Part shown: positions 59,410 to 64,000 of the stretch, in pieces
Numbering within the stretch: the first letter of the stretch is position 1
Layout of the letters: each line of letters begins with the position of its first letter
Assembly (NCBI RefSeq): GCF_000243395.2
Contig: NZ_CM001484.1
Coordinates: forward strand, 3,218,524-3,282,523
DNA: 64,000 nt
Direction of reading: 5' to 3'
DNA from: Saccharomonospora glauca K62
GTDB lineage: Bacteria; Actinomycetota; Actinomycetes; Mycobacteriales; Pseudonocardiaceae
Position numbers and translations under genes: made by a program
The notes under the pieces: generated by a model
Told to the model about the DNA's origin: nothing
The model's input: only the letters and a program-made list of their open reading frames with translations
Databases searched by the model: none

Positions 59410-60447
59410 TCAGAAGTCGACCGGAGCGGGAGCGCTGTCCTCACCCTCCTCGGCCCCGATGCCGAGCTTTTCCTTGATCTTCTTCTCGATCTCGTTGGCG
59501 ACGTCCGGGTTCTCGCGCAGGAACCGCCGGGCGTTCTCCTTGCCCTGACCGAGCTGGTCGCCCTCGTAGGTGTACCAGGCGCCCGACTTACGGACGATGC
59601 CCTGGTCGACACCCATGTCGATCAAGGAACCCTCACGCGAGACACCGATTCCGTACAGGATGTCGAACTCGGCCTGCTTGAACGGCGGCGCGACCTTGTT
59701 CTTGACGACCTTGACCCTGGTGCGGTTACCGACCGGCTCACCGCCGTCCTTCAACGTCTCGATCCGGCGCACGTCGAGGCGGACGGAGGCGTAGAACTTC
59801 AGCGCCTTACCACCGGTGGTGGTCTCGGGGCTGCCGAACATGACGCCGACCTTCTCGCGGAGCTGGTTGATGAAGATCGCCGTGGTGCCCGAGTTGTGGA
59901 GGGCACCGGTGATCTTCCGCAGCGCCTGGCTCATCAGGCGTGCCTGAAGACCCACGTGGGAGTCGCCCATCTCACCCTCGATCTCGGCCCTGGGCACGAG
60001 AGCGGCCACGGAGTCGATGACCAGGATGTCGAGCGCGCCCGAGCGGATCAGCATGTCGGCGATCTCCAGCGCCTGCTCACCGGTGTCGGGCTGGGACACC
60101 AGCAGGGCGTCGGTGTCGACCCCCAGCGCCTTGGCGTACTCGGGGTCGAGCGCGTGCTCGGCGTCGATGAAGGCCGCGATACCTCCCGCCTTCTGCGCGT
60201 TGGCCACGGCGTGCAGCGCGACCGTCGTCTTACCCGACGACTCCGGGCCGTAGATCTCCACGATGCGGCCTCGTGGCAGGCCCCCGATACCCAGCGCGAT
60301 GTCCAGCGCGATGGCTCCCGTCGGGATGACCTCGACCGGCGGCCTGGTGTTCTCACCGAGGCGCATCACCGATCCCTTGCCGAACTGCTTGTCGATCTGG
60401 GCAAGGGCCAAATCGAGCGCTTTGCCCTTGTCCGGTGCTGCTGGCAT
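59410..60447 (-). CDS. recA: Recombinase RecA
   Basis: DNA strand-exchange ATPase and LexA co-protease. The 345-residue product has Walker A GPESSGKT (67-74), the Walker B strand [14 protein letters not shown], loop L1 [36 protein letters not shown], and the acidic C-terminal tail [12 protein letters not shown]. No intein is present. The ATG at 60447 ([10 protein letters not shown]) has GAGGTGG upstream. The 200 bp before it hold a PafBC-like promoter, an inverted DnaA-box pair and an SOS box, so control is both LexA-dependent and LexA-independent, as in mycobacteria. Confidence 0.98.
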
Positions 60448-60527
60448 GGAATCCACCTCATTGGCTGTTCATCGGGGCCCGCAGATGCGCTGTCGGGAGT
60501 CCGCGGGATGTCTGTTGTTCGAGTCCG

Positions 60528-60646: not shown

Positions 60647-60841
60647 CTACCGTCGTTCGACGGGGATGTCGAACTCCGCGCACACCGCCCGCCAGATCTC
60701 CTTGGCCGGAACGCCGTCGTCGAGAGCCTGGTCGACGGTCCGGCCCCCGAGTCCGCTGAGCACGTGGTCGGAGGCCAGCGTCGCCGCACGCACCTGGCCG
60801 AACTCCTCGGCCATGAGTCGCCGGAACACCGTAATTCGCAT
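60647..60841 (-). CDS. DUF3046 domain-containing protein (Rv2738c type)
   Basis: A 64-residue actinobacterial protein found just upstream of recA. The sequence has the family pattern MRITVFRRLMAEEFG, then SDHVLSGLGGRTVDQALDDGVPAKEIWRAVCAEFDIP. Function unknown. The ATG at 60841 has TACGCT 7 nt upstream, a possible leaderless -10; an upstream ATG at 60859 is less likely. It is transcribed towards recA; the SOS box lies 20 bp after its stop. Confidence 0.88.
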   Translation of the reverse strand: MRITVFRRLMAEEFGQVRAATLASDHVLSGLGGRTVDQALDDGVPAKEIWRAVCAEFDIPVERR

Positions 60842-60883
60842 CGGCTCCAGCGTAGTCATCCCCGCGGTACGCCCGAAGGACCG

Positions 60884-60895: not shown

Positions 60896-61018
60896 ATGGT
60901 GTTGTCGCAGGGCTTCTCCGATCTCCAGTCCACTGCGCTCACGCTGGCGTCGATCGCCGTGGTCGGCAGCTCACTGGTCGTGCTGATCATCAGCGTGCTC
61001 CGCAACCGGAGGAAGTGA
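60896..61018 (+). CDS. 40-residue single-helix membrane protein
   Basis: The product begins MVLSQGFSDLQSTA, has one membrane helix at about 15-35 (LTLASIAVVGSSLVVLIISV) and ends in the basic LRNRRK. It is divergent from the DUF3046 gene, 54 bp away, and converges on the Hsp70-like gene, 7 bp apart. A TAGGGT hexamer at the leaderless spacing and the orderly layout (helix plus positive-inside tail) support a real gene, but its short length leaves doubt. Function unknown; a partner or regulator of a membrane complex is possible. Confidence 0.5.
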   Translation: MVLSQGFSDLQSTALTLASIAVVGSSLVVLIISVLRNRRK

Positions 61019-61025
61019 CCCGAGC

Positions 61026-62945
61026 TCACTCGCCCGGTTGCACGGTGTTCTCGAAGTAGTCCGCCATCGCGTTCGCCGAGGTGGTCTCGCCCTCTCCCGT
61101 GAGATTGACCTGGTAGACGAACCCGGCGAGCGGGCGATCGTCCACGGTGAACACCACCACCGACGAGTTGCGTCCCGCCGAGGCCGCGTAGCGGCCGGAC
61201 AGTCCGTTGCCCTGCCACTCCGCCTGCACCTGCTCGCCCCCACCCGTGCGGGTCAGTAGTCCGTCGAGGTACTGCTCGATGGCGCCTTCCGACGCGGAAT
61301 GCAGGTAGGTGATCTGCGCTCCGGGCAGGCCGGGAGCCGAGCAGGTCACCGTGACGCCGAGTTCCTCCTCGTTCGCCGCGGCCGCGGGGCCCGTACCGGT
61401 GCCCGGCGCGCAGTTGTTGTCCCGAGGCACGGTGCCCGCGAGCTGGCGCATGCACCCGGTGAACCCCTGCTCGTCGGGTGTCCCCGGCTGTCCGCATTCC
61501 GACGCCGCGTACGTCTCGGCCGAGGAGGACGGCCAGAACAGCCACGTCGCCACGCCCCCGAGCACGGCCACGGCACCGACGGCCACGGCCGCGATCAGCC
61601 CGGTGCGCTTCTTCGTGCCGCCGGTCTTCGGCACCGAGGGGAAGTTGGCGGGCGCGGTCCCCGTGGAGCCGAGAGGCGTCCCCGAGGTCGGCTGCGGCCC
61701 GGTGGTCGGATAGGTCGCGGGGTACTGCTGCTGCGGTGCGGGCTGGGCCGGCACCGCCCCGGCGGGAGGCGAGTAGGGACCCGTCAGGTTCGGCGTCGGG
61801 GCGGGCGCGACCGTCGCGGGGGCCGACTGTGCCCCCACCACGTCGCCGTCGACCTGCTGCGTCCGCATGCTGAGGCCGTCGGGGCCCACGTGGTGCGCGC
61901 CGAACGCCACGGCCGTCTCGGGCTGGTCGAGACTCGACGGCACCACGCCGAGCTTCTCGGCCAACAAGCTGCCCACGAGCGGCAACCTGCTCGACCCCCC
62001 GACGAGGTAGATCCCGGCGAGCTGGTCGGGGGTCAGTCCCGCCGAGCGCACCGTGCGCGCGAGCAACTCGACGCTGCGCAGCATCATGGGCCGCACCAGC
62101 GCTTCCAGCTCCGCCCTGGTCACCAGCACGTCCGAGAACGGCTCGGGCATGGGCACCTCGGTCTGCGGGAGCCGGGAGAGCGCCTCCTTCGCGGCCTTCA
62201 CGTCCTCCTGCAAGGCCCTGCGGGCCCGGCGGTCGGCGGTCGACTCCGGACGCAGGAGACGCTGCCACCGCTGCGGGTCGCTGTGGGAGACCTCGCGACC
62301 GACGTGCACGAGCAGGGCCTGGTCGACGTCCAGGCCACCGAGGTCGGGAAGACCGTCCTCGGCCAGTACCGTGAAGCCGTTCTGGGTGGCTCCGAGCACC
62401 GCGACGTCGAACGTGCCCGCGCCCAAGTCGTAGACGGCGAGCGTCTGCCCCGGCGCGAGTCCCTTGCCGGGGAAGGACGCGAAGTGCGCCGCCGCGGCGA
62501 CGGGCTCGGGCACCAGCGTGATCGCGTTGCCCATGCCGGCGAGTCGAGCCGCGGACAACAGGACGTTGCGCCGCACGGGGCCCCACTGGGCGGGGTGGGT
62601 CAGGCGCACCTCCTCGGGCGGCTCACCCCCGAGCTGCCGCACGGTCTCGTCCAGCACACGGCGCAGCACGGCGGCGAGCGCCTCGTTCACGGGCACCACG
62701 TCGGTGCCGAGCAGGAGGGTCTGCTCGTCCACCCTGCGCTTGGGGTTCGGCTCGAAACGGGTGGGATCGAGCCGCGCGCGACGTTCGGCGTCCCTGCCGA
62801 CCACGAGGCCACCCTCTTCCTCGGCGAACACGGCCGAAGGCATCGTGGCCGAGCCGTCGACGTCGATGACCCTGGGTGGTCGCCCGTGTGCGGAGAGGAC
62901 GGCCACGGTGTTCGACGTACCGAGATCGACGGACAGAATCCCCAC
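61026..62945 (-). CDS. Membrane-anchored Hsp70-like ATPase with extracytoplasmic domain
   Basis: The 639-residue product starts with an Hsp70/actin-type ATPase (1-375): phosphate-1 DLGTSNT (7-13), phosphate-2 YDLGAGTFDVAVLG, and adenosine motif GGSSRLPLVG. No substrate-binding domain of DnaK follows. Instead there is a Pro/Ala/Gln/Thr-rich linker (about 390-445), one membrane helix (about 449-471) and a 168-residue outer domain with four Cys (ECGQ, GCMR, NNCA, VTCS) that probably form two disulfides. GTG at 62945 with GGGAGAA upstream is chosen; homology starts there. Function unknown; the layout suggests signalling across the membrane driven by ATP state. Confidence 0.87.
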   Translation of the reverse strand: MGILSVDLGTSNTVAVLSAHGRPPRVIDVDGSATMPSAVFAEEEGGLVVGRDAERRARLDPTRFEPNPKRRVDEQTLLLGTDVVPVNEALAAVLRRVLDETVRQLGGEPPEEVRLTHPAQWGPVRRNVLLSAARLAGMGNAITLVPEPVAAAAHFASFPGKGLAPGQTLAVYDLGAGTFDVAVLGATQNGFTVLAEDGLPDLGGLDVDQALLVHVGREVSHSDPQRWQRLLRPESTADRRARRALQEDVKAAKEALSRLPQTEVPMPEPFSDVLVTRAELEALVRPMMLRSVELLARTVRSAGLTPDQLAGIYLVGGSSRLPLVGSLLAEKLGVVPSSLDQPETAVAFGAHHVGPDGLSMRTQQVDGDVVGAQSAPATVAPAPTPNLTGPYSPPAGAVPAQPAPQQQYPATYPTTGPQPTSGTPLGSTGTAPANFPSVPKTGGTKKRTGLIAAVAVGAVAVLGGVATWLFWPSSSAETYAASECGQPGTPDEQGFTGCMRQLAGTVPRDNNCAPGTGTGPAAAANEEELGVTVTCSAPGLPGAQITYLHSASEGAIEQYLDGLLTRTGGGEQVQAEWQGNGLSGRYAASAGRNSSVVVFTVDDRPLAGFVYQVNLTGEGETTSANAMADYFENTVQPGE

Positions 62946-63073
62946 CAGTTCTCCCTTGTCGAGTTCCCGAGAAACCGCGGTGATGCTTTCACGTCGGGCG
63001 ACGACGCGGGGACGCACCCGGCAGTTCCGGCCGCTCGACGAACGACGCGAGGCCGAACTGTCGGGGTGGCACG

Positions 63074-63079
63074 CATGAT
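63074..63079 (+). promoter_or_regulatory. Candidate -10 for a leaderless lhr transcript
   Basis: CATGAT ends 6 nt before the GTG at 63086. GGAG within the spacer is only 2 nt from the start, too close for a ribosome site. Confidence 0.4.
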
Positions 63080-63085
63080 GGAGAT

Positions 63086-64000
63086 GTGCCCGACGACGTC
63101 CGCCCAGCCGTACTGGAATTGTTCTCGCCCGCCACCCGGCAGTGGTTCGAGGGCGCGTTCGCCGCGCCCACGGCCGCTCAGGAGGGGGCGTGGCGGGCGG
63201 CCGAGGCGGGCGAACACGCGCTGGTGGTCGCACCCACCGGCTCCGGCAAGACGCTGGCCGCGTTCCTGTGGGCACTCGACCGGCTGGTCACGTCGGCACC
63301 ACCCACGCGGGAGCGACGCTGCCGAGTGCTGTACGTCTCCCCGCTCAAGGCGCTCGCCGTGGACGTCCAGCGCAACCTCCGAGCACCACTGGCCGGTATC
63401 TCGCAGGCCTCCCGCAGGCTGGGGCTGGAGGCCCCCGACATCACGGTGGGCACTCGCACGGGCGACACCACGCCCGCCGAACGCCGCGCGTTCGCGCGCA
63501 CCCCGCCCGACATCCTGGTGACCACGCCGGAATCGCTGTTCCTGCTGTTGACGTCCGCGGCGCGCGAAGCCCTGCGCGGTGTCGAGACCGTGATCGTCGA
63601 CGAGGTACACGCCGTCGCGGGCAGCAAGCGCGGCGCACACCTCGCGTTGTCCTTGGAACGGCTCGACGACCTGCTCGAACGCCCCGCGCAGCGCATCGGG
63701 CTCTCGGCCACGGTGCGTCCCGTCGACGAGGTGGGCACGTTCCTCACCGGTGGCAGGCCCGTCCGTCTCGTCCAGCCCCCGGCGAGCAAGACGATCGAGG
63801 TGCGGGTCGAGGTCCCCGTCGAGGACATGGGTGAACTCGACGCCCCACCCACGCGGGAGGAACCGGCCTCGCTGCCCTCGGAGGCGGACCCGGAGGGCGC
63901 TCCGGACGTACCCGAGCGGGCCGGACGGGCGTCGATCTGGCCCGCCGTGGAGGCACGAGTGCTCGACCTCGTGCGCGCACACCGTTCCACCATCGTCTTC
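63086..64000 (+). CDS. lhr: Lhr-type DNA helicase (5' part only)
   Basis: The first 305 residues of a superfamily 2 DNA helicase; full-length actinobacterial Lhr proteins have about 1500 residues, and the gene runs off the right edge. Visible motifs are Q-motif region PTAAQEGAW, Walker A APTGSGKT, motif Ia VLYVSPLKALAVD, TGDTTPAERR, motif Ib TTPESLFLLL, motif II DEVHA, and motif III GLSATV. Lhr is a DNA-damage-related helicase in mycobacteria. The GTG at 63086 has the leaderless pattern upstream. It is divergent from the Hsp70-like gene, with 140 bp shared. Confidence 0.92.
   Translation, partial: MPDDVRPAVLELFSPATRQWFEGAFAAPTAAQEGAWRAAEAGEHALVVAPTGSGKTLAAFLWALDRLVTSAPPTRERRCRVLYVSPLKALAVDVQRNLRAPLAGISQASRRLGLEAPDITVGTRTGDTTPAERRAFARTPPDILVTTPESLFLLLTSAAREALRGVETVIVDEVHAVAGSKRGAHLALSLERLDDLLERPAQRIGLSATVRPVDEVGTFLTGGRPVRLVQPPASKTIEVRVEVPVEDMGELDAPPTREEPASLPSEADPEGAPDVPERAGRASIWPAVEARVLDLVRAHRSTIVF

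Follow-up and report, generated by a model that had tools for sequence, protein, structure and literature searches.

The gene that we call Hsp70L, found in a 64,000-nucleotide stretch of the Saccharomonospora glauca K62 chromosome (hereafter the window), belongs to a family of Hsp70-like ATPases in actinobacteria, of which it forms one branch and whose members have a membrane helix and exchangeable outer domains. Its product belongs to the Hsp70 nucleotide-binding domain (NBD) superfamily and is a paralogue of proteins carrying the TIGR03931 domain, being itself neither an Hsp70 chaperone nor a member of the TIGR03931 family. Strong selection preserves the Hsp70 engine in this protein, in which a membrane tether and an outer domain stand where the chaperone arm would be. 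Two thirds of the genomes sampled from the host's bacterial family have the gene (outer domain in 134 of 200 genomes and 33 of 46 genera), and a search of the open-licence literature found no published account of this branch or of the family. Tentatively, and at somewhat less than an even chance, we read Hsp70L as a tethered Hsp70-type ATPase switch, which the outer domain would place and whose ATPase would act on a partner in the cytoplasm that serves membrane remodelling or secretion.

Coordinates of Hsp70L, of its domains and of its neighbours within the window
Feature	Position	Strand	Remarks
Hsp70L gene: Hsp70-type NBD, linker, membrane helix, outer domain	61026..62945	-	639 aa, GTG start
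Hsp70-fold ATPase domain, residues 1-355	61881..62945	-	D7, T10, K69, E147, D173, T178, D180 present
Pro-rich linker, disordered, residues 356-448	61602..61880	-	from model, dN/dS and length counts
Membrane helix (one), residues 449-469	61539..61601	-	from model and charge counts
Outer domain with four conserved Cys, residues 470-639	61029..61538	-	from alignment, models and family searches
Single-helix microprotein gene, 40 aa, convergent	60896..61018	+	GTAGGGT shortly 5' of ATG in 7/7 genus members
DUF3046 gene, 70 aa, frequent neighbour	60647..60859	-	PF11248, E 2e-29
recA, frequent neighbour	59410..60456	-	named from its sequence
lhr-type DEAD helicase gene	63086..64000	+	DEAD, E 5.5e-32; leaves the window; lhr is the name given by the sequence-only reading
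Divergent intergenic region, Hsp70L/lhr-type gene	62946..63085	.	conserved blocks among 9 aligned sequences

The GTG start is supported both by the conservation of the first residues and by AAGGGAGAACTG, which lies shortly 5' of it and is kept in 7/7 aligned genus members. The full-length model, built from 26 aligned sequences (mean pLDDT 78.3, pTM 0.54), is ordered over residues 1-355, disordered (pLDDT <50) over 359-450 and, following the helix at 449-469, ordered again in the outer domain as far as residue 639. The sequence-only reading, which had described an Hsp70-like ATPase devoid of the DnaK peptide-binding domain and joined by a Pro-rich linker to a single membrane helix, is borne out by this model and by the ends of the HSP70 matches; as to the 168-residue outer domain with four Cys that it had announced, the four Cys are there and the length is about 170 residues.

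Conservation was followed in two sets. The first consists of the window copy and 25 locus-mates (L035-L059), these being the top of the matches listed, with the fragmented G001, G005 and G006 left out; the second consists of 79 named relatives and leans to close relatives, since it was drawn from the top 80 of at least 304 confirmed loci, and has at least nine contigs in common with the locus-mates. For counts on whole proteins the second set was reduced to 76 by setting aside three proteins of less than 550 aa, namely L154 and L182 (contig ends) and L178 (outer domain lost).

The N-terminal part matches the Pfam family HSP70 (PF00012) with E 4.2e-34 and 118.2 bits (cut-off 20.6; best stretch 88-350), its score for MreB_Mbl (27.6 bits, cut-off 27) being far lower, and a search of solved chains gave the DnaK NBD 1dkg as the closest solved relative (E 4e-36). 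Superposition of the ATPase model on Hsp70 NBDs yields Z 32-34, the value for 1dkg_D being 33.4 (336 aligned residues, rmsd 2.8), whereas the cut-offs of HscA and DnaK are widely missed by the whole protein (134.7 vs 620 and 127.6 vs 648 bits, respectively). The matches to solved Hsp70 chains stop in most rows at residue 350-352, a few reaching 380-400, within the linker (60 of 124 matches), and neither the ends of the profile and solved-chain matches nor the full-length model showed a peptide-binding domain in Hsp70L.

The ATP-site residues, which we take to be those of the phosphate loops, the catalytic Lys and the GG of the adenosine motif, are conserved: D7, T10, K69, E147, D173, T178, D180 and the residues of LVGG do not change in 26/26 members of the locus set, and the same seven together with G316 and G317 are kept in 79/79 named relatives (best 80 of at least 304). 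The corresponding figures are 25/26 and 77/79 for G177 and 26/26 and 78/79 for G204, the larger set being again drawn from the top 80 of at least 304. A general loss of the ATPase residues across orthologues, one of the two outcomes that would have told against the sequence-only reading, is therefore not what was found. In 35 paralogues D7, E147, D173 and D180 are kept in 35/35, K69 and T178 in 34/35 and T10 in 33/35, and in an alignment to DnaK of the same genome K69 falls on the K-R. Eight pairwise comparisons with relatives gave dN/dS values of 0.017-0.10 for the ATPase part, on account of which the conservation exceeds chance.

Hsp70 proteins are known as chaperones, and in DnaK an interdomain linker of the VLLL type carries allostery; the genome's own DnaK has this linker as DVLLLD, and none was seen after residue 350 in the 26 aligned Hsp70L proteins. 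Hsp70L thus resembles the NBDs of DnaK and HscA in the fold of residues 1-355 and in the ATP-site residues and differs from both in having a membrane helix and an outer domain and in lacking the peptide-binding domain and the VLLL-type linker. Having retained the ATPase engine and lost the chaperone arm, Hsp70L should, as judged from its sequence, bind or hydrolyse ATP and swap partners without refolding clients.

The linker has a pLDDT of 31-38 in the full-length model and a length that ranges from 43 to 172 residues in the 26 proteins and from 43 to 217 in the 76 (best 80 of at least 304); against eight relatives its dN/dS is about 0.3-0.8 (0.31-0.79) and that of the short helix segment 0.39-0.96. 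When the 15 residues on either side of the helix are compared, the N-terminal flank is the more positive one in 26/26 proteins of the locus set and in 75/76 of the larger one (best 80 of at least 304), where the exception is the frame-broken L169. Exactly four Cys follow the helix in 24/26 and 73/76 proteins, the exceptions being L056 (domain lost), L059, L152 and L181 (five Cys) and L169 (broken frame), and the ATPase part is without any Cys in 15/26 and 53/76, the larger sets deriving in both cases from the top 80 of at least 304. Because of this charge bias and of this Cys distribution, a topology with the ATPase inside and the outer domain outside is favoured, and a cytoplasmic outer domain, the other outcome that would tell against the sequence-only reading, is disfavoured. 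In L169 (Saccharomonospora saliphila) the Hsp70L frame is seemingly broken in the linker, either by a sequencing error or because the gene is a pseudogene.

These properties bear on the idea, put forward by the sequence-only reading, that the ATP state is relayed across the membrane by the helix and alters the outer domain. The two parts do travel together, the outer domain being found by tblastn in 76/79 loci (best 80 of at least 304; for 10 of them a second, tandem copy gives the best match), and the constancy of the four Cys also speaks for the idea. On the other hand, the sole link between the two is a tether that is disordered, variable in length and fast-evolving, the helix is poorly conserved and there is no allosteric linker of the VLLL type, so that passage of a conformational signal through the linker is unlikely and transmission from inside to outside appears very improbable. 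The linker would offer reach and local concentration rather than a path for a signal.

The four Cys of the outer domain are kept in 24/24 aligned sequences, and its dN/dS against the eight relatives is 0.17-0.35. Structure prediction and profile searching, the two approaches that the sequence-only reading had recommended for this domain, had different outcomes: modelled alone, the domain gave a confident structure (pLDDT 90.1, pTM 0.87), and the searches gave no credible family. Indeed, no Pfam or NCBIfam family was matched by more than one of the 24 members (the best E values were 0.021 and 0.033, none PknH-like), no solved chain was found by profile at E up to 10, and, with E values up to 1 considered, TIGR03931 did not appear among the matches of full-length Hsp70L or of the 24 outer domains. 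Foldseek returned nothing at E 0.001 or better, its first match being TiME (E 0.0048). Structural comparison gave TplEi (Z 7.8), the PknH sensor 4esq (Z 7.2, 128 aligned residues, rmsd 4.1 Å), Apa (7.0), TiME (6.9), Mog1 (6.1), PsbP (5.5) and LpqN (5.4), all of them below 8, a range for which the tool cautions that two structures may share no more than a common arrangement, with the PknH row tied with others. Our best guess from the model is that the domain has a mixed alpha-beta fold like those of the PknH sensor, PsbP and Mog1, the likeness being weak.

Across 296 genomes of the phylum the outer domain was found only in the window's own genome, presumably because the phylum sample held few members of the host's family. 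Two loci from another family, L057 and L059, have a plausibly related domain whose Cys pattern aligns and which tblastn with the domain of the window misses. In Haloechinothrix halophila (L056 and L178) the ATPase, linker and helix are kept and the outer domain is lost, which leaves a protein of 503 aa (L056:4787-6295).

The layout of PknH is kinase-linker-helix-sensor, and the resemblance of Hsp70L to this layout suggests an outside-in receptor, in which a PknH-like ligand sensor with two disulfides would undergo ligand-driven clustering and so alter the activity of the ATPase or its choice of partner, in parallel to what has been proposed for receptor Ser/Thr kinases and with an Hsp70 ATPase instead of the kinase. 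Clustering, unlike the movement of a rod, tolerates a floppy linker, and the PknH sensor, which is among the best structural matches, contains, according to PMC4118811 and PMC3601408, two disulfides as well as a cleft in which a small ligand may bind. The resemblance in fold is weak, however, with tied Z values and no sequence similarity found to a PknH-type receptor, Hsp70L has an ATPase where the latter has a kinase, and no output partner is known; a receptor of this kind is possible, though on balance unlikely.

The switch reading that we prefer draws its partners from the context of the paralogues. The genome has four places that match PF00012, corresponding to DnaK, Hsp70L, an ESX-4-linked paralogue and a divergent gene. 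The ESX-4-linked paralogue follows EccCb, carries the TIGR03931 domain (77.6 bits vs a cut-off of 47.6), has the same ATPase-linker-helix-outer layout as Hsp70L and is 46% identical to it over residues 5-465. According to PMC4791881, the ancestral ESX-4 cluster includes rv3446c. What the sequence-only reading had called unusual must be weighed against a whole family of paralogues.

This relationship invites the possibility that Hsp70L is a second ESX-4 factor, i.e., a relative of the ESX-4-linked protein serving the same secretion system in trans. The shared architecture, identity and position after EccCb of the paralogue are in line with such a role, as is the presence of the ESX-4 outer domain in 185/200 genomes of the family; nevertheless, the seven ESX-4 loci form one separate set in the tree (100/100 support), the outer domain of the Rv3446c family (TIGR03931) has two Cys vs the four of Hsp70L, hhalign finds no similarity between the two outer domains (probability 0.1), and EccCb or EccD, neighbours of the ESX-4 loci, are matched at 0 of the 25 locus-mates of the Hsp70L branch. 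A second ESX-4 factor is accordingly improbable.

Other paralogues adjoin genes for dynamin-like GTPases, which are found within about 5 kb at 11/28 other paralogue loci vs 0/25 locus-mates and 0/7 ESX-4 loci, the 28 paralogue and 7 ESX-4 loci having been picked by hand from part of the matches listed. The eleven loci (L061-L064, L067, L069, L072, L073, L197, L199 and L203) belong to several families of the order, and their Hsp70-like ATPases are single-pass or tail-anchored. The dynamin calls were made with an in-house model derived from seven dynamins, whose own loci match by construction; 9/11 are backed by Pfam and two (L062 and L064) by the in-house model only, and L196 (Pfam 21.2 bits vs a cut-off of 27) and L201 (E 1e-8) were excluded from the count. 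EccD-like genes are also found at two of the dynamin-linked loci, L061 and L062. The dynamin-linked paralogues do not form a single clade (6 changes on the tree), and 5/11 of the proteins (L063, L064, L067, L072 and L073) stop 2-8 residues past the helix, so that the part shared by these paralogues is the ATPase at the membrane and not the outer domain. The divergent Hsp70-like gene of the window's own genome is separated by 1.8 kb from a dynamin gene, and no Hsp70L was seen in the 12 kb looked at around a tandem dynamin pair at about 4460900-4464900 of G000:C1. Hsp70L is connected with the actinobacterial dynamin loci in that some of its paralogues adjoin them and is set apart in that none of them lies beside its own branch.

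Dynamins occur in 132/134 genomes with the outer domain vs 34/66 without it, but this co-occurrence is confounded by lineage, because the ESX-4 outer domain is split in a similar manner (132/134 with the Hsp70L outer domain vs 53/66 without; hand count); the genomes are not independent, and, judging from their matching handles, the same 200 served for all three counts. In genus g26 the dynamin match reads over one in-frame stop, which is TGA in G389, G416, G436, G452, G467, G482, G494 and G505 and TAA in G515.

The family context hints, through its gene neighbourhoods, at membrane-remodelling or secretion machines as partners, and a mechanism can be envisaged for the tethered switch. With the ATPase domain predicted to lie in the cytoplasm and the outer domain, carrying two putative disulfides, in the envelope, the latter would bind an envelope ligand or protein and so position the ATPase; the long floppy linker would let the ATPase reach a membrane-bound partner on the cytoplasmic side, upon which it would act through its ATP cycle. 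The likeliest partner would be a dynamin- or ESX-type membrane-remodelling machine whose genes lie elsewhere in the genome, and Hsp70L would be a localised switch or recruiter and not a rod sending its nucleotide state outward. We hold this mechanism only tentatively because no partner is encoded near the Hsp70L branch (a dynamin or ESX gene was seen at 0 of the 25 loci and none beside the window copy) and because the dynamin co-occurrence is confounded; the Z values below 8 of the outer-domain fold and the retention of ATPase and helix without the outer domain in L056 also count against it, as do the scatter of the dynamin-linked paralogues over the tree and the missing outer domain in five of these eleven proteins.

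A broader scheme, in which receptor-like tethered Hsp70 ATPases would serve dynamins, ESX-4 and, for the lhr-recA branch, an orphan dynamin pair, with the outer domain acting as an envelope address, is rather doubtful. If correct, it would define an undescribed actinobacterial family servicing membrane-remodelling machines, and confirmation of a dynamin or ESX partner would provide a testable ATP-driven cofactor for bacterial membrane remodelling and for ESX-4.

Within flanks of about 5 kb the 25 locus-mates have the lhr-type gene in 23 cases, DUF3046 in 23 and recA (so we take the gene to be, from its sequence) in 22; for the 79 named loci (best 80 of at least 304), several of which lie on short contigs, the counts are 70, 68 and 66, with recX at 64, and the lhr-type gene lies within about 0.75 kb in 57/79 (hand count, same best 80 of at least 304). 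In two genomes from another family of the order (L057 and L059) DUF3046 and recA adjoin Hsp70L and no lhr is nearby. In the tree a branch with 97/96 support separates all 26 members, together with one moved copy, L060, from the other sequences. Judging from these loci, the linkage of Hsp70L to the lhr-type helicase, DUF3046 and recA genes is old. The divergent region that the sequence-only reading had assigned to Hsp70L and lhr is as described, the DEAD-helicase gene starting at about 63086 with some 140 bases in between; most of the 9 aligned sequences of this region have conserved blocks, around CATCATGCGTGCC on the lhr side and CGTGAAAGCATC on the Hsp70L side. A scan for promoters and terminators returned 0 and 0.

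These neighbours could indicate a role in DNA repair or in nucleoid-membrane contact, a view strengthened by the persistence of DUF3046 and recA beside Hsp70L in the other family. Gene order may, however, reflect mere chromosomal conservation within one family, other genes separate Hsp70L from DUF3046 in many loci, and a four-Cys domain past a membrane helix is ill-suited to a purely cytoplasmic DNA role; such a function is quite improbable. DUF3046 is discussed together with PSP in PMC11237479, and a link to the PSP envelope-stress operon was considered and dropped because the genome's single PspA match lies about 345 kb away and no PSP-like gene was seen in ten loci whose proteins were judged by eye from their first residues.

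Ten of 16 rescanned named loci, all from Actinokineospora or Actinophytocola, have two or three tandem Hsp70L copies (L151, L152, L155, L158-L161, L167, L170 and L176).

The 40-residue gene on which Hsp70L converges, as had been noted from the sequence, ends 7 bases from the Hsp70L stop. Its co-occurrence with Hsp70L holds in part: it is found in 15/26 syntenic loci, a count made without a control, and, by stricter rules, in 24/76 named loci with enough flank (best 80 of at least 304) vs 0/76 and 1/76 in two controls. Measured against the window copy, its dN/dS ranges from 0.18 to 0.37 among genus members (6 comparisons with few sites); the next two relatives give 0.42 and 0.53, and the two most distant ones compared exceed 1. 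In part of the family the microprotein is genuine, its distribution being patchy, and, since it was not found in many relatives that keep Hsp70L, it is no obligate partner. GTAGGGT shortly 5' of its ATG would fit a leaderless promoter, and its 40 residues end in RNRRK.
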